DNA from: a virus
Length of the DNA: 53,811 bases
Virus record (IMG/VR): IMGVR_UViG_3300044712_000302
Location: 1-53,811 of that record
Strand: one strand, 5' to 3'
This document shows, in pieces, positions 40,681 through 48,234 of this stretch (the first letter of the stretch is position 1; every line of letters starts with the position of its first letter). Below the pieces are notes generated by a model. That model was not told the origin of the DNA. It did not search any database and saw only the letters and a list, made by a program, of their open reading frames with translations. Both the position numbers and the translations under genes were made by a program.

Positions 40681-41595
40681 TTAGACGCCAGCGGTACCGA
40701 ACACGGCGCGTGGGTCAGTCCAGCCCAGAGCGTAACGCTCGGTGGCCTTGTAACGCATGCTGTCGGTTTCGAAGTCGCCTTCCATGGACTTTTCCAGACC
40801 ACGGCGCATCATCAGCTTCAGACCTTCGGGAGCGTCGGTCTGCACCCACCAGGCGGTGGTGCTGGTGATACGAGACAGGTTGGCTTGGCCTTCGGCCAGC
40901 AGACCCATCGACTTCACAGGGTTGATGTCGTTGTCGGCGGTGCCGGTGCGCAGCACAGACTTCAACAGGACCTCAGCCTGGAACACGTTGGAAGGACCGG
41001 AGACGATCTTCTTGGGTGTCAGGCGGATACGCTTGCCGTTGTTGTCAACAGCGTTGCGAATCTGAATGAGGATCTGCTCGAGCGAGGTCTGAGACAGAGC
41101 GGCGGCGGTGGCCAGCTGGTTGCTGAACGTGCCGTTGACGATCGGGTGAGCCGTGGAAACCAAGGACACGCCGTCACCACCGGTATACGCGCCGTTGAAA
41201 GCGCGGTTCAGGATGTTGGCTGCCAAGGTCTCTTTGGTCTCGATCAGGGACTGCGCCAGGTGCTTGGCGTAGGTCTGACCGATACGGATGTGGTCGCCGT
41301 CTTCAACCAGAACTTTGGTCAAAGCGAAGGCCAAGCCGTACACCTTGTAGAGGTAGCGCTGCAGGAACAGGACGCCACCGGATTGGTAGGTCACTGCCAT
41401 GCCGTCAGGCAGCTCAGGCGCAGCACCGAAGCCGTACAAGACGGGCTCTTCGTGGTAGTTGCGTGGGATGCCTTTTTGCTCGCGGAACACTTGTTTCCAC
41501 TCGTCAGCACGCTGCTCATAAACGCCGTCGAACACTTCGTTCAGGATCGGCTCAACAACGGACCGGAAGTCCGTACTACGCATTGGGGTTGCCAT
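40681..41595 (-). CDS. Major capsid protein
   Basis: A 304-aa protein with the layout of one group of phage major head proteins: STDFRSVVEPILNEVFDGVY and EEPVLYGFGAAPELPDGMAV near the N terminus, then SLIETKETLAANILNRAFNG, GVSLVSTAHPIVNG, and the C-terminal GLEKSMEGDFETDSMRYKATERYALGW (catalogue pattern of HK97-fold capsids). It follows the scaffold and a minor head gene, as expected. Weak but adequate GAGGG site before 41595, and a terminator hairpin after its stop. Confidence 0.88.
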   Translation of the reverse strand: MATPMRSTDFRSVVEPILNEVFDGVYEQRADEWKQVFREQKGIPRNYHEEPVLYGFGAAPELPDGMAVTYQSGGVLFLQRYLYKVYGLAFALTKVLVEDGDHIRIGQTYAKHLAQSLIETKETLAANILNRAFNGAYTGGDGVSLVSTAHPIVNGTFSNQLATAAALSQTSLEQILIQIRNAVDNNGKRIRLTPKKIVSGPSNVFQAEVLLKSVLRTGTADNDINPVKSMGLLAEGQANLSRITSTTAWWVQTDAPEGLKLMMRRGLEKSMEGDFETDSMRYKATERYALGWTDPRAVFGTAGV

Positions 41596-42842: not shown

Positions 42843-43841
42843 TTACGCGCGGTTGTTGCGGTCGTATTCCGCATAGCGTTTCACGTACTTCATGCGAAGC
42901 ACGGGATCGTCCCAGACACCGGCATCGATCAGCGCTTGCTTGCGCTCGGGGCTGATGTAGACCTCGGTCCGGGTACTTGTCGGCGCGTGCTCGCGGCCAG
43001 AGCCGATGGCAGGGCCGCCGCGTTGCTGGCGCTGAGGCTGCTGAGACTGTTGCGACTGCTGGCGCTGGCTGCCCTGGCCGGAGCCGGACTGCTTGAAGCG
43101 CTCAGGCAGGCGGCGTGCCGCACGCTCGCGCAGCTCGTCCCAGTACTCCTCGGTGTCCGGGCGGAAGCCCTCGCGGTGCAGAGCGCCGTCGATGGCCAGC
43201 ACGATGGCGCTGTCCTCGTCGCCGCCTTTGATGTCGTACCAGGGGTTTTGGTTGATGAACTCCTTGGCGAAGTGCACCGACATGTCGTCCAGGCCGTCGT
43301 TCTTGGGCTGGGCTGCCTGGCGTTGGACCATCGCCTGCTGCTTGGCGTAGGCCAGCTGCTGTGCTTTCTGCAAGGCCTGATCGCGATAGCGCATGGCTTG
43401 CGTGACGTCCTCGCCGTTGCCAGCGGCCACCGCCTTGGCGATCACTCGCTCAGCCATCTCCGCTTCGTTCTTGGCATTGGCGATCTGCGCATCGATCTGC
43501 GACAGGTCAGCCTGGTGCGTGCGCTGCTCGACGGTGCCAAGGCGGCGCTCGAGATCGTCGTTGCGCTTGCGCAAGAAGTCCAGCTCCAGCTTGTCGCGCT
43601 TGATCGCCTGCTCGCGGCGCTCCTTGCGTTCGAGCTTTTCCAGGCGGCGGCGCTCGCGGATCGCCTCACGCTCGGCGTCGTTGCCGTCGTTGTGGCCATC
43701 GTCGTCGTTGCCAGACAGTCGCTCGTCGTCTTCGTGGCCGTCGTCGTTGTCGTCTTGGTTTTGGTTGCCGTTGGGCTGGTCCTCGACGATGACGATTTCT
43801 TCGTTGTTGGGATTGCTGTCGTCTTCAGTCAATGTTGGCAT
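42843..43841 (-). CDS. Capsid scaffolding protein
   Basis: A 332-aa protein. Residues 1-60 are extremely acidic (Asp/Glu/Asn runs). Residues 60-200 are coiled coil (RRRLEKLERKERREQAIKRD, DDLERRLGTVEQRTHQADL). A Gln/Ser-rich linker and a C-terminal basic segment (SPERKQALIDAGVWDDPVLR) follow. This is the usual build of podovirus scaffolds, whose C terminus binds the capsid. Its place between portal and capsid supports the call. CTGAAAGGAGC ribosome site. Confidence 0.82.
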   Translation of the reverse strand: MPTLTEDDSNPNNEEIVIVEDQPNGNQNQDDNDDGHEDDERLSGNDDDGHNDGNDAEREAIRERRRLEKLERKERREQAIKRDKLELDFLRKRNDDLERRLGTVEQRTHQADLSQIDAQIANAKNEAEMAERVIAKAVAAGNGEDVTQAMRYRDQALQKAQQLAYAKQQAMVQRQAAQPKNDGLDDMSVHFAKEFINQNPWYDIKGGDEDSAIVLAIDGALHREGFRPDTEEYWDELRERAARRLPERFKQSGSGQGSQRQQSQQSQQPQRQQRGGPAIGSGREHAPTSTRTEVYISPERKQALIDAGVWDDPVLRMKYVKRYAEYDRNNRA

Positions 43842-43869
43842 GGTCTGCTCCTTTCAGCAGGATGGTTGG

Positions 43870-44268
43870 TTAAACAAGGGCGTGCTCATTGAGCTTGGAC
43901 TTGAGCTCGTAGCCCATGAGCGGCCAGATTTTCTGCACGGCGTTGGCGCGAGCAACCTTGCGGCCGATCTCGGCGTCAAAGTTCTCGGGGCTGGCGCAGG
44001 CCGACTCGCCGGTGACGGTGAAGCCGTTTTTCAGCACCAGCACGCAAAAGGTCAACAGGTCGAGTGGAGCCTTTGCGTTTTCAAACGAGCCGACAACGAT
44101 TTCGGGCGAGTGCTCTTTGGCTTGCGCAATCACAGCGCCGAGCGTGCCTTGGGCGGCTGTGAAGTAAACCTCCTCAAAGATGTTGGCCTCGATGTCGGCA
44201 GGTGTGATGCGCGGGGCAGTCTTGCCTTTGGCTTGGATTTCAGCTTCGATTTGTGCGTCGGTGGTCAT
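43870..44268 (-). CDS. Gp49/Gp66-family protein (N4 gp49/Sf6 gp66-like)
   Basis: A 132-aa protein. Its second half (GFTVTGESACASPENFDAEIG, ARANAVQKIWPLMGYELKSKL) matches the Phage_gp49_66 family, found in many phages and of unknown function. Its first half adds a helical region (ITPADIEANIFEEVYFTAAQ). It overlaps the RyR gene as ATGA, forming a three-gene cassette with the Acb2-like gene. Confidence 0.88.
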   Translation of the reverse strand: MTTDAQIEAEIQAKGKTAPRITPADIEANIFEEVYFTAAQGTLGAVIAQAKEHSPEIVVGSFENAKAPLDLLTFCVLVLKNGFTVTGESACASPENFDAEIGRKVARANAVQKIWPLMGYELKSKLNEHALV

Positions 44269-44627
44269 GATGCGTCCTTTGTGGGTGAGGTTGGGCGCAG
44301 GGCGTGCACCACTGCGCGGAAGATGAAGTCCTTGGCTTGCTGAGCTTGGGGCAGCATGTCAAATGGAACGATGCAGTGATGCGTCTTAGCCTCGGGGTCT
44401 TTGACTGGGCCATACACCCAGCCATCGGCAACCTTTTGCGCCATCCAACTTTCGTGGCTGGCTTCGGGTCCGACGTTGTTGTCGCAGTGCAGGTTCACGC
44501 CCATCATGGCGCTGTCTCGCTGCCACTGCGGTGCATCTTCCCAGGCTGGCTGGCTCATGTCGCCCAGGGCTTCGCAGTAGGCTCGGTTCACCTCATGGCA
44601 AACGCGGGCGATCTGTTCGCGGTTCAT
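44265..44627 (-). CDS. RyR-domain protein
   Basis: A 120-aa protein. WMAQKVADGWVYGPVKDPEA and KTHHCIVPFDMLPQAQQAKD (about residues 58-100) are diagnostic of the RyR domain, named after ryanodine receptors. In bacteria RyR domains have been proposed to bind nucleotide-derived signals. The first 50 residues are a helical, conserved extension. It starts at 44627 and overlaps the Acb2-like gene before it and the Gp49/66 gene after it by ATGA. The ligand is unknown. Confidence 0.88.
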   Translation of the reverse strand: MNREQIARVCHEVNRAYCEALGDMSQPAWEDAPQWQRDSAMMGVNLHCDNNVGPEASHESWMAQKVADGWVYGPVKDPEAKTHHCIVPFDMLPQAQQAKDFIFRAVVHALRPTSPTKDAS

Positions 44628-44869
44628 GAGTGGCTCCAAGTGATGGCCTTGACAGCCCACATCTGAGCGGTTTGTGCTTCTGTGATTGCGATGCTGAGCA
44701 TGCGTTTGACTTCGGCGTCAGTTGCTTCTTGGCGGCGGAGGTTCAGGTTGTCCACCAAATTGGCGAACTCCTGCTTCACGAGTGCCACGGACAAATTGCC
44801 GCCAGGGTTGAACGACACGCCACAGGCTTTTTCGCCAAATGTAAATTCACGGTTTGGTGTTTCGGTCAT
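44624..44869 (-). CDS. Acb2/Tad1-like hairpin protein (candidate anti-CBASS/anti-Thoeris sponge)
   Basis: An 81-aa protein. FGEKACGVSFNPGGNLSVAL is followed by a helix (VKQEFANLVDNLNLRRQEA) and a second helix (EVKRMLSIAITEAQTAQMWAVKAITW). The two-helix hairpin and AxTxxQTxxMWxVKA pattern look like the Acb2/Tad1 domain. Some such proteins form hexamers that sequester cyclic nucleotide immune signals. I recognise the pattern from memory; a profile search is needed. ATGA overlap with the RyR gene. Confidence 0.65.
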   Translation of the reverse strand: MTETPNREFTFGEKACGVSFNPGGNLSVALVKQEFANLVDNLNLRRQEATDAEVKRMLSIAITEAQTAQMWAVKAITWSHS

Positions 44870-44881
44870 GTCAGTCCCCCG

Positions 44882-45292
44882 TCAGATGAAAGCACGGATG
44901 GCCAGCGGGTCGCCGGTCACCTGGCCGATGATGTCCAGATCGTTGAAGATCACGAACAGGGCGGACTCGCCGTTGGGAAGCGGCACCTCCCAGCGGTCGC
45001 CGCCGTATTTCGGCACGCGAACGTAGTCGCCCGGGCTGCACCAGCTGCCTTCGGGCCAGGGGTCCATGGTGTTTCGGTTCTTAAAGGCAAGGGTCCCAAC
45101 GGAGACGACGCGCGCCACCTGGGTGTTCCACTTCTCGGTGTCCCGAGAGCCGTTGTCAATGATGATTCCGGATGCCGTTTTGGTCTTGGGGGTGCGGATC
45201 TGCACCAAGACTCGGCTCCCGAATGGGACGATCCCAGGATTCGCCTCGGGGAAGGCTTCTCGCATCGCTTCAATCAGCGCGTCAGCTGTCAT
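44882..45292 (-). CDS. GroES-like co-chaperonin
   Basis: A 136-aa Cpn10-like protein: GIVPFGSRVLVQIRTPKTKT, ASGIIIDNGS (mobile-loop region), VARVVSVGTLAF, then PGDYVRVPKYGGDRW and FNDLDIIGQV. Phage GroES proteins pair with host GroEL to fold capsid proteins. No GroEL gene is present, so it must partner with the host. It is longer than E. coli GroES by about 40 residues. CTGAAAGGAGC ribosome site, with a hairpin upstream. Confidence 0.85.
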   Translation of the reverse strand: MTADALIEAMREAFPEANPGIVPFGSRVLVQIRTPKTKTASGIIIDNGSRDTEKWNTQVARVVSVGTLAFKNRNTMDPWPEGSWCSPGDYVRVPKYGGDRWEVPLPNGESALFVIFNDLDIIGQVTGDPLAIRAFI

Positions 45293-45365: not shown

Positions 45366-45563
45366 TCACAGGTCTCGGTCGCCGTTTCGCTCGTCGTTCA
45401 GAAGGTCAAGCAGGGCTTTGATGGCTGCTTCGTAACCAGCAACCATGCCCACTCGGTATCCGTACTCGAAAGCGTCCCGATCGACCGGGCGCTTGAGGGC
45501 TTCAAGCGCGAAAACCTGCTGGTCAGCCTTGAGCTTGCCGAGCAGGCGGTCTTCGATGGCCAT
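45366..45563 (-). CDS. Hypothetical late protein (65 aa)
   Basis: A helical protein, MAIEDRLLGKLKADQQVFAL, with EYGYRVGMVAGYEAAIKALL. It starts immediately after the stop of the 45-aa gene. Function unknown. Confidence 0.7.
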   Translation of the reverse strand: MAIEDRLLGKLKADQQVFALEALKRPVDRDAFEYGYRVGMVAGYEAAIKALLDLLNDERNGDRDL

Positions 45564-45701
45564 TTAGCAGGGCGTCTTGGGCATCGATGGGGCGGCCGGG
45601 GTCGTTTGGCCGTTCACTGGCTGGCCAGCGGCCATGCGGTGGTGCTGTTTGACCAGCGCGCCAGTCATCGGGACGGTGCCGGGGGTGGGTTTGTCGCTCA
45701 T
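45564..45701 (-). CDS. Short hypothetical protein (45 aa)
   Basis: The frame MSDKPTPGTVPMTGALVKQH... has 45 residues, Pro/Thr-rich, with no fold apparent. GGAG precedes its ATG and its TAA abuts the next start codon. It lies right after portal in transcription order. Confidence 0.6.
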   Translation of the reverse strand: MSDKPTPGTVPMTGALVKQHHRMAAGQPVNGQTTPAAPSMPKTPC

Positions 45702-45714
45702 GGTGGGCTCCATT

Positions 45715-48234
45715 TCAGGGTTGTGGGTTGATACCGGTGCCGGTGGACACCGCTACTTTTTCGCCAGAGGCAATTTCTGCTGCGGCCAGACGCATGGCCG
45801 TCACGTTGTCGGCCGTGTTCATCTCAACACGGGCGCTGATTTCGGCTGCGGTCCTCTGGTTTTCGGCAAACTCGCGCATCTGATCGGCCTGGAACTGCTC
45901 CGAGCGGGCCTGCTGCTTGTCGGCCAGCGCGGCGGCATCGGACTGAACCTTCTGTGCTGCCTTCTGCTGCTCGATCTGCAGGCGCTGCTGGTCGGTCTGT
46001 GCGCGCTGCTGCAGGGCAAGTTGCTGCACCTGCGCGTTGAGCTGCGCAATCTCCATGCTTTTGTCCTGCGGCATCTGAGGTGGCTGAGGGGCAAACTGCT
46101 GGGCCATCTGATCGATCTGGGCCAGCTCCTTGGAAAACTGCGCCAGCTGCTGCTCGATGATCTGCTGCACGCGCACGATGACCTTGACCTGCTGCTCGGC
46201 GTCGTCGGTGATCAAATGCTCGCGCTCGGCGCGCTGCACGGCCTCGTGGGCTTGCGTCAGGTAGAAGTTCAACAGGTGGTCGCGCAGGTGCTGCGCCATC
46301 GGGTAGATGTAGGTCTTGACGATGGCCGGGTTCATGCCAAACACCGGCGACTTCAAGAACGCCAAGTGCGTCTGGATGTGCGCCACGTGGTCCTGCTTGG
46401 GCAGCACGTAGACCGGGCGGCCCATCGAGGCGGCCACGTTCTCGCTAACCGGGTCGACGTCGTCCTGACCAGGCTGAGGCTGCAGCACGTCGTCCGGGCT
46501 GAGCTTGAGGTTGCGCAGGAACATTTCCTCGACCTTGCGCAGGTCGTACATCTGCGGCATGGCAGATGCACGGGCCTGCACGGCCTGGACCTGGGCGAAG
46601 CGCTGCGCCTCGCTGAAGATGGCCGGGTCGGACACGGGCACAACGTCCATCGGGCCGTCGAAGTCCTCGGGCTTCACATCCAGGCCGTTTTCCATGGCCT
46701 CGATGTCTTCTTCGGTCAGGTACGCGCTGTTGATGCGGTGCAGGATGGCAAACACGCGTGCCATGCTGTTGTGCAGGCGCGAGTGGATGGAGCTGAACAC
46801 CACCATGCCCTGCTCGATGAGCGCCAGGGTCGTGCCCACCGGGGCGTTGGGGTTTTGGTCGGACAGCTTCTCAAACGAGGTCTGCACCACGCCCTTGCCC
46901 GCGTCCACCAGGAAGCCGAGCAGCTGGAACAGCGTGGGGCTTGGGCCGTTGAACGGCAGGGCCATGGCCAGCTTGCGAATGTCGTCGACCAGAGCTCCGC
47001 CCTCAATCTCGACCACCTCGGTCGGCTGCAGGTTGATCGTCTGGCCGCCAGGGCCGCCCTTGAGTTTCAAAAGCGTCGGGATGTTTTGGATGTGGGCCGA
47101 GTCCAGCAACGCACGCAGCGCGCCAGTGGCTGCGCCCGACAAGCCGCCGATCATGTGGGTCAGGCCAATCGGGTACGCGCCGCGCCAAGGCACGAACGGG
47201 AACTCGACAATCCAGTCCAGCTCCTTGCGGCGCTGGTCCTCTGGCTCCCAGTTGCGGTACAGCGAGAGCGCCTTGCGCGTGGACTTGTCGATGCTGATGA
47301 TGTACGGCTCCATGCCGTCACCAAAGTCCAGGTGGGTGTAAATCTCGAAGATGGTCCGCAGGCCGTCCTCGTTGTAGCTGGTGTCCTCGCGGCCCTCGAT
47401 CTTGTCGTTGGCGATCGTGGCCTTGCTGAACTCGACCTGATCGGGCGAGCCCAGGTCCACCTCGGTGTACATGCCCGCCTTCATGCGGCGGTTGAACTCG
47501 GCCTTGGTGACGTACTGCACGTGCGTCTTGCGCTCGGCCGAGTAAAAGTTGGTGGCCGCAAACGGCAGGTAAATGTCGTCGATGGCGATGAACTCGGCCG
47601 TCGGGCGCTTCCACTGCGGGGACCACATGAGCTTGAGGTACTGGCCGCCACCCAGGGGGAGTTGGGTGGACAGCTGCTCCAGCTCGCCGCGCAGCTCGGG
47701 CATTTGCTGCGTGGTCTGCCAATTCATGAACTCGGCCTTGCGGCGGGCCTTTTCCAGCTTCTCGGGCTCAGCCTCGCCCAGAATCTTGGACTTGACCGGG
47801 CCGGAGGGCGGGAAAACCTCCTTCATGAATCGTGCGCTGAAATCGACACAGGCCTCGACCAGCATCGGGTGCACCACCTTGTTGGCTCCCGAGAACTGAG
47901 CACCGCCGGGTGCATCGTCGCCCAGGCCGGTGCGGCGCAGGCCTTCCTCGTAGAGCTTGTCGCGCTTGGAGCGGGCGTCCTTGTCGCGCTCGATCTTGTC
48001 GAGCAGGTCAACGACCGCGTCGGACAGCATGCTGCGATCGACCTCGTCGACGATGTTGGCAAAGTGAGCCTTCTTGTCGGCCACATCCTGCTCGTTCTTC
48101 ATGCGGATGACCGCGCCACCGTCCTCGGTATCTTCAACCTCCAGATCGTCGTCGGGCATGGAGACGGTTTCGCCTCGCTGCTCATCGTCGCTTGGGTTCT
48201 CGTCTTCGCCGTCGTTCAGGAGTTGGTCAGCCAT
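45715..48234 (-). CDS. Portal protein
   Basis: An 839-aa portal, the DNA entry ring at one capsid vertex. The core (residues about 60-560) has DAPGGAQFSGANKVVHPMLV, PLGGGQYLKLMWSP, AFIAIDDIYLPF-type strands, WIVEFPFVPWRGAYPIGLTH and SIHSRLHNSMARVFAILHRI. The C terminus (650-820) is a long Gln-rich coiled coil, probably the helical barrel extending into the capsid. Size matches large P22-like portals. The N-terminal 50 residues are strongly acidic. It follows the PcfJ-like gene by 4 bp. Confidence 0.9.
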   Translation of the reverse strand: MADQLLNDGEDENPSDDEQRGETVSMPDDDLEVEDTEDGGAVIRMKNEQDVADKKAHFANIVDEVDRSMLSDAVVDLLDKIERDKDARSKRDKLYEEGLRRTGLGDDAPGGAQFSGANKVVHPMLVEACVDFSARFMKEVFPPSGPVKSKILGEAEPEKLEKARRKAEFMNWQTTQQMPELRGELEQLSTQLPLGGGQYLKLMWSPQWKRPTAEFIAIDDIYLPFAATNFYSAERKTHVQYVTKAEFNRRMKAGMYTEVDLGSPDQVEFSKATIANDKIEGREDTSYNEDGLRTIFEIYTHLDFGDGMEPYIISIDKSTRKALSLYRNWEPEDQRRKELDWIVEFPFVPWRGAYPIGLTHMIGGLSGAATGALRALLDSAHIQNIPTLLKLKGGPGGQTINLQPTEVVEIEGGALVDDIRKLAMALPFNGPSPTLFQLLGFLVDAGKGVVQTSFEKLSDQNPNAPVGTTLALIEQGMVVFSSIHSRLHNSMARVFAILHRINSAYLTEEDIEAMENGLDVKPEDFDGPMDVVPVSDPAIFSEAQRFAQVQAVQARASAMPQMYDLRKVEEMFLRNLKLSPDDVLQPQPGQDDVDPVSENVAASMGRPVYVLPKQDHVAHIQTHLAFLKSPVFGMNPAIVKTYIYPMAQHLRDHLLNFYLTQAHEAVQRAEREHLITDDAEQQVKVIVRVQQIIEQQLAQFSKELAQIDQMAQQFAPQPPQMPQDKSMEIAQLNAQVQQLALQQRAQTDQQRLQIEQQKAAQKVQSDAAALADKQQARSEQFQADQMREFAENQRTAAEISARVEMNTADNVTAMRLAAAEIASGEKVAVSTGTGINPQP

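Follow-up and report, generated by a model that had tools for sequence, protein, structure and literature searches.

A variable slot in a phage head operon as a probable exchangeable cassette of putative anti-signalling sponges

In the virus record IMGVR_UViG_3300044712_000302 of IMG/VR (53,811 nucleotides, here called the window), three short genes, A, B, and C, lie in the head operon between a GroES-like gene and a scaffold-like gene. We consider it likely that this interval is an exchangeable cassette of sponges that counter the nucleotide signals of two bacterial immune systems, the cyclic-oligonucleotide-based antiphage signaling system (CBASS) and Thoeris, with binding predicted from family membership. 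In relatives, a fourth family, Tad2 (family D, PF11195), replaces or joins A to C in the same slot; a Pfam match search found no Tad2 in the window. A preliminary description of this DNA had proposed an anti-defence unit with two nucleotide-binding proteins. Family membership, together with a comparison of the slot across relatives, gives good support to the anti-defence part of that proposal, the number of sponge families in the window being rather three than two.

The coordinates and overlaps given in the preliminary description for three coupled genes between the GroES-like and scaffold genes were borne out, and all three genes lie on the minus strand. The start of A lies 12 bp past the GroES stop codon, and the A/B and B/C junctions are both 4-nt ATGA overlaps. 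The features concerned are as follows.

43842..44881, minus strand: variable slot, the entire GroES-like to scaffold-like interval, 1040 bp in the window
44882..45292, minus strand: GroES-like (Cpn10) gene, upstream slot boundary (PF00166, 36.9 bits)
44624..44869, minus strand: gene A, 81 amino acids, Acb2/Tad1-hairpin protein, putative cyclic-oligonucleotide sponge (PF24729)
44265..44627, minus strand: gene B, 120 amino acids, RyR domain (RyDEP family), putative sponge or glycosidase for the cyclic ADP-ribose isomers 2'cADPR and 3'cADPR (PF02026)
43870..44268, minus strand: gene C, 132 amino acids, Gp49/66 = Acb4 family, putative cyclic-dinucleotide sponge (PF13876)
42843..43841, minus strand: scaffold-like gene, downstream slot boundary, function by position

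Ratios of nonsynonymous to synonymous substitution against relatives were 0.09-0.26 for A, 0.04-0.14 for B, and 0.12-0.28 for C. Because the values fall between 0.04 and 0.28 in all comparisons, indicating purifying selection, the three genes are real and constrained.

The product of gene C had correctly been called a Gp49/66 protein (PF13876, Phage_gp49_66; 112.9 bits against a curated cut-off of 27). It had, in addition, been treated as a bystander, and this part of the description does not hold, since PF13876 is the family to which the sponge Acb4 of phage SPO1 (gp1.3), with 1,331 homologs found, has been assigned (PMC11722364). All eight Acb4 homologs that were tested bind 3'3'-cyclic GMP-AMP (3'3'-cGAMP), with cyclic di-AMP (c-di-AMP) as a further ligand of the homologs whose phages infect Gram-negative hosts (PMC11722364). 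The solved Acb4 structure 9e4w was the sole match of the C sequence in the PDB (E 0.0024) and the only significant match of a profile built from 39 homologs (E 5.4e-5; next entry E 0.99). Moreover, when the AlphaFold2 model of C (predicted local distance difference test score, pLDDT, 79.9) was compared with known folds, Acb4 came first in VIA-align (Z 6.7 across 75 residues at 27% identity, against 4.9 for the runner-up), with double-stranded RNA-binding domains and ribosomal proteins ranking below it, and occupied ranks 1-13 in Foldseek (probability 0.97-1.00). C has a longer middle region than Acb4, in which residues 38-53 form an additional helix, and it departs from Acb4 at most of the named pocket residues. 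On the evidence of its sequence and model, C is an Acb4-family protein and a putative cyclic-dinucleotide sponge. (Note that genes with a DNA match to C, at window positions 43907-44064, occur between the head and tail genes of the Pseudomonas phages vB_PaeS-D14C [L403 2976-3335] and P7869 [L404 2476-2838], where they are labelled 'anti-CRISPR protein'; they look like Acb4-family genes, and that annotation may be wrong.)

The RyR domain recognized earlier in the product of gene B was confirmed (PF02026, 41.7 bits against a curated cut-off of 27.4). In a sequence search, B residues 48-109 aligned without gaps to residues 66-127 of PDB entry 35tm (62 residues, E 2.7e-11), an entry that by its name, length, and fit appears to be RyDEP with one extra tag residue. 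RyDEP is the founding member (gp78 of the Mycobacterium phage DyoEdafos) of the phage RyR-domain proteins that a 2026 preprint describes as acting on 2'cADPR and 3'cADPR (PMC13232231). B keeps the equivalents of RyDEP H75, W78, H100, and D117 as H58, W61, H83, and D100, at the same spacing (+3, +25, +42); among 29 B homologs the first three are invariant and D100 is at least 90% conserved. RyDEP of DyoEdafos cleaves 2'cADPR and 3'cADPR, whereas six of eight homologs bind and none of those cleaves; two homologs, one from a Ruegeria and one from a Pectobacterium phage, act as sponges in the nanomolar range and protect phages against Thoeris (PMC13232231). Among the homologs found for B, those of Pectobacterium phages are ~58% identical to it. 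Because cleavage was absent in highly conserved homologs, B would more probably be a sponge than an enzyme, and there is no need to suppose a sensor, phage RyR proteins having been described as RyDEP, that is, as sponges or glycosidases for these two isomers. The setting also differs: DyoEdafos RyDEP is located in a NARP1 NAD+-synthesis operon, whereas B shares a head operon with further sponge families. Of 67 other loci that hold B outside the slot, 24 have a gene of family A, C, or D within 600 bp of it.

Two further observations concern RyR proteins. First, DUF7701 (PF24792) weakly matches those of phages (E 3e-4 in L158 5335-6345, residues 283-331; E 0.022 for B), and the two families may, judging by these matches, be related. 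Second, some RyR proteins carry a C-terminal extension of 150-180 amino acids that has no confident family assignment (L399 2986-3846, from Pseudomonas phage 8P; L235 3075-3950; L199 2783-3556); in the Pseudomonas phage 8P protein the extension gives a coiled-coil match.

The product of gene A, described earlier as a two-helix hairpin, falls in PF24729 (Acb2_Tad1_hairpin) above the curated cut-off (38.7 bits against 27; the positive control, T4 Vs.4, scored 71.4 bits). It carries AITEAQTAQMWAVKA, which fits the pattern AxTxxQTxxMWxVKA. Its AlphaFold2 model (pLDDT 91.9) has helices at residues 11-16, 26-48, and 52-80, a predicted short N-terminal helix followed by two long antiparallel helices, like the protomer of Acb2 (T4 Vs.4, Pseudomonas phage PaMx33-type); the fold of the Acb2 protomer and the activity of the Acb2, Tad1, and Tad2 families are described in PMC12043709. 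Direct similarity to T4 Acb2 is low, the N-terminal part with the conserved FNP motif remaining unaligned, and the beta-sheet domain of the Tad1 type is missing in A.

Several findings weigh against so straightforward an assignment of functions. When the A profile was searched against the PDB, T4 Acb2 (Vs.4) ranked top yet with an E value of 0.23, and hhalign of A against Vs.4 gave E 1.2e-4 at a probability of 55%. In the fold comparison the match to Vs.4 (Z 7.1) had the top identity in the list (25%) but was tied with unrelated hairpins; it is a weak match because helical hairpins resemble one another. As with most helical hairpins, Foldseek returned nothing for A at E <= 0.001 and no sponge in the first 50 rows. 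(Note that the absence of Tad1 from the fold list for A is uninformative.) The structural match to Acb2 that had been foreseen was seen as an Acb2-type fold and was weak as a specific resemblance: Pfam places A among the Acb2/Tad1-hairpin proteins, and its direct resemblance to T4 Acb2, in sequence and in model, is suggestive only. Outside the slot, moreover, A stands alone in 70 of 74 loci, and among 50 whole records with A, B is also present in three and C also in three. For gene C, an ungapped alignment covers nine of the Acb4 pocket residues, of which three are kept (F48, F62, I66) and six are altered (E49 to T, V56 to C, Y57 to A, N63 to D, T70 to V, and K81 to P). For gene B, two of the eight RyDEP homologs formed no stable complex, and the founding RyDEP alone was catalytic (PMC13232231).

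Such findings bear on the possibility that the cassette is indeed anti-defence and that its ligands have been misjudged, B being a glycosidase, C an RNA binder, and A a binder of some other ligand. We regard this as unlikely, although it is the alternative that fares best. It draws on the enzymatic nature of DyoEdafos RyDEP, of which B keeps both catalytic dyad residues; on the architecture that Acb4 shares with double-stranded RNA-binding domains, which do appear among the fold matches of C, if below Acb4; and on the mostly altered pocket of C. The binding of 3'3'-cGAMP by every tested Acb4 homolog speaks against it.

We then compared the slot across relatives, reading the stretch from the GroES-like to the scaffold-like gene in each locus that holds both. 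Loci were gathered by A, B, and C and, as a guard against bias, also by the two genes that border the slot. Cargo was placed by domain coordinates, whole open reading frame coordinates losing A in some slots through false upstream starts. Among 95 distinct slots, 61 were empty (<100 bp; 12-80 bp in the relatives) and 34 filled; loci fetched by the flanking genes alone gave 94 distinct slots, 61 empty and 33 filled. The complete public genome MW202545 has an empty slot, with its GroES and scaffold genes 12 bp apart. All 34 filled slots hold genes of families A, B, C, or D only. They leave no room for any further gene, what is uncovered being the N-terminal part of D or stretches under ~100 bp, and 823 kb of flanks of the same loci (partly overlapping, mostly structural genes) gave zero matches to A-D.

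Tad2 occurs in 18 of the 34 filled slots, and nine of nine slot proteins tested matched PF11195 at 79-92 bits (cut-off 25). There are twelve arrangements, given here in transcription order: DC (11 slots), C (7), D (3), ADC, ABC, CB, and B (2 each), and DBC, DCA, BC, AB, and A (1 each). (The single C gene of L250, which the script scored as 'CC' on account of a split match, is counted as C.) The trio as a conserved unit was rejected, ABC being found in just two distinct slots; of the co-occurrence expected for it, what stands is a slot with varying sets of four sponge families. B and D are together in one of 34 slots where 4.8 were expected (Fisher p 0.006, a nominal value for one of six pairs, uncorrected for relatedness). 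Tentatively, such avoidance would be in keeping with both proteins having ADP-ribose-type signals as their targets. Most of the slot Tad2 proteins differ from known Tad2 in an extra N-terminal stretch of ~50-75 amino acids (MERYIGTKLINAKPMTR...SWSPAEVF), which has no Pfam match (L161 5483-6004, L274 4526-4990, L238 4194-4577, and others); the Tad2 of L343 is without it.

A generic cargo site, in which any small gene may land and sponges are found by chance or through sampling, would be compatible with a sample that consists of relatives of one phage group, whose slots are phylogenetically correlated. We nevertheless hold this to be very improbable: all 34 filled slots draw on the same four families with no leftover gene, the flanks contain none of them, and the fillings have changed many times.

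The number of such changes was estimated from a tree built with 93 scaffold proteins; it was made quickly and has some long branches, which leaves the counts approximate. It requires at least 23 changes of arrangement and at least 9 between empty and filled; by family, the changes number at least 7 for A, 7 for B, 11 for C, and 11 for D. Identical or near-identical scaffolds accompany different cargo in the window (ABC) and locus L238 (DC), in L003 (ABC) and L251 (DC), and in L108 (BC) and L255 (DC). A contig whose scaffold product is identical to that of the window has Tad2 where the window has A and B. L238 is 98.0% identical to the window over 48352 to 44867 and 99.7% over 44271 to 40751, and L239 is 98.0% identical upstream and 99.3% downstream. 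In both, one breakpoint of the swap coincides with the start of A and the other with the B/C junction, as follows.

44272..44866, minus strand: A+B segment, replaced by a Tad2 gene in L238 and L239

The least probable alternative is that A, B, and C are head-assembly factors (helpers of the co-chaperone or scaffold) whose operon position reflects their function, as might be suggested by the shared strand, the 4-nt overlaps, and the GroES-like and scaffold-like genes on either side; against it, 61 of 95 related junctions, including that of a complete genome with a 12-bp gap, do without all of them, order and content vary among phages with identical scaffold proteins, A elsewhere often has genes for recombination and replication as neighbours (as read from the sequences), a setting that speaks against a structural role, and every family has published anti-signalling members.

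The cargo genes are closely coupled. Whichever families adjoin, 23 of 27 cargo-gene junctions are 4-nt (or 1-nt) overlaps of the ATGA type. L128, L152, and L158 each encode a single protein that unites B with C. PHROG family 4435 matches both C (first third) and B (last quarter), and in Klebsiella phage P19-618 the B and C genes overlap (XMN66528/XMN66527). (The cultured Vibrio phage vB_ValP_FGH [L400 2671-3339, UKH48585.1] encodes a 222-amino-acid 'hypothetical protein' with an Acb4-family domain at 23-102 and a RyR domain at 164-209.) Our searches, which covered an open-access library, returned no description of an exchange slot of this kind or of Acb4-RyDEP fusions. Each family is known, and a dedicated multi-family exchange slot appears to be new. 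Phage anti-defence islands, mentioned for anti-CBASS genes (PMC11722364), are likewise clusters of small anti-defence genes; the slot differs from them in being single, short, located in a head operon, limited to families of nucleotide-signal sponges, and modular, with one to three genes.

Taken as a sponge cassette, the locus could work as follows. The slot would take between one and three short genes, coupled in translation, from four signal-sequestering families, namely Acb2/Tad1-like (A), RyDEP (B), Acb4 (C), and Tad2 (D), one RyDEP being known to cleave. In the window, A, B, and C would be made with the capsid proteins off one head-operon transcript. A and C would capture the cyclic oligonucleotides of CBASS, and B cyclic ADP-ribose isomers of Thoeris, so that the effectors would stay off while capsid proteins accumulate, presumably late. 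Related phages would exchange cassettes at gene boundaries, probably in a way that fits the defences of their current hosts. Thoeris can be set off by a phage head protein, as reported for ThsB1 and a major head protein (PMC12043709), and one may speculate that the late position of the sponges exists because the head protein triggers Thoeris, so that sponge and trigger coincide. A bolder version, possible but to our minds doubtful, holds that this is a dedicated, fast-turning sponge slot: its proteins would be produced alongside those of the capsid since capsid accumulation helps to trigger CBASS and Thoeris, swaps at ATGA junctions would track host signals, and B-C fusions would catch two chemically different signals.

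The head operon as a whole runs on the minus strand in the order portal, two small genes, GroES-like, A, B, C, scaffold-like, two more genes, and major capsid protein, with the two ends at these positions.

45715..48234, minus strand: portal gene
40681..41595, minus strand: major capsid protein gene

The scaffold-like gene at 42843..43841 has no family in Pfam or PHROG; we infer its name from position and composition. It is kept beside the GroES gene in relatives, and the complete genome MW202545 has the same order. The two small genes between portal and GroES (45366..45563 and 45564..45713) are without a family match, and each is kept in seven related loci. A consensus scan found no promoter inside the locus, and neither Rfam families nor tRNA genes turned up when the window was scanned for them. 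PADLOC gave zero matches, as expected for a tool that catalogues defence and not anti-defence.

If the sponge-cassette reading is correct, RyDEP, Acb4, Acb2/Tad1, and Tad2, which were discovered singly in different phages, would be linked as exchangeable components of a single function, and the comparison also brings to light natural Acb4-RyDEP fusion proteins. The near-identical phages that differ in their sponge set (the window against L238 and L239) would form directly testable pairs. The slot would, moreover, preserve a history from nature of the changes in phage sponge sets, and be a small, cleanly bounded site at which more sponge families might be found by position; should it prove to be a dedicated sponge slot, any unfamiliar gene in it would be a new sponge candidate.
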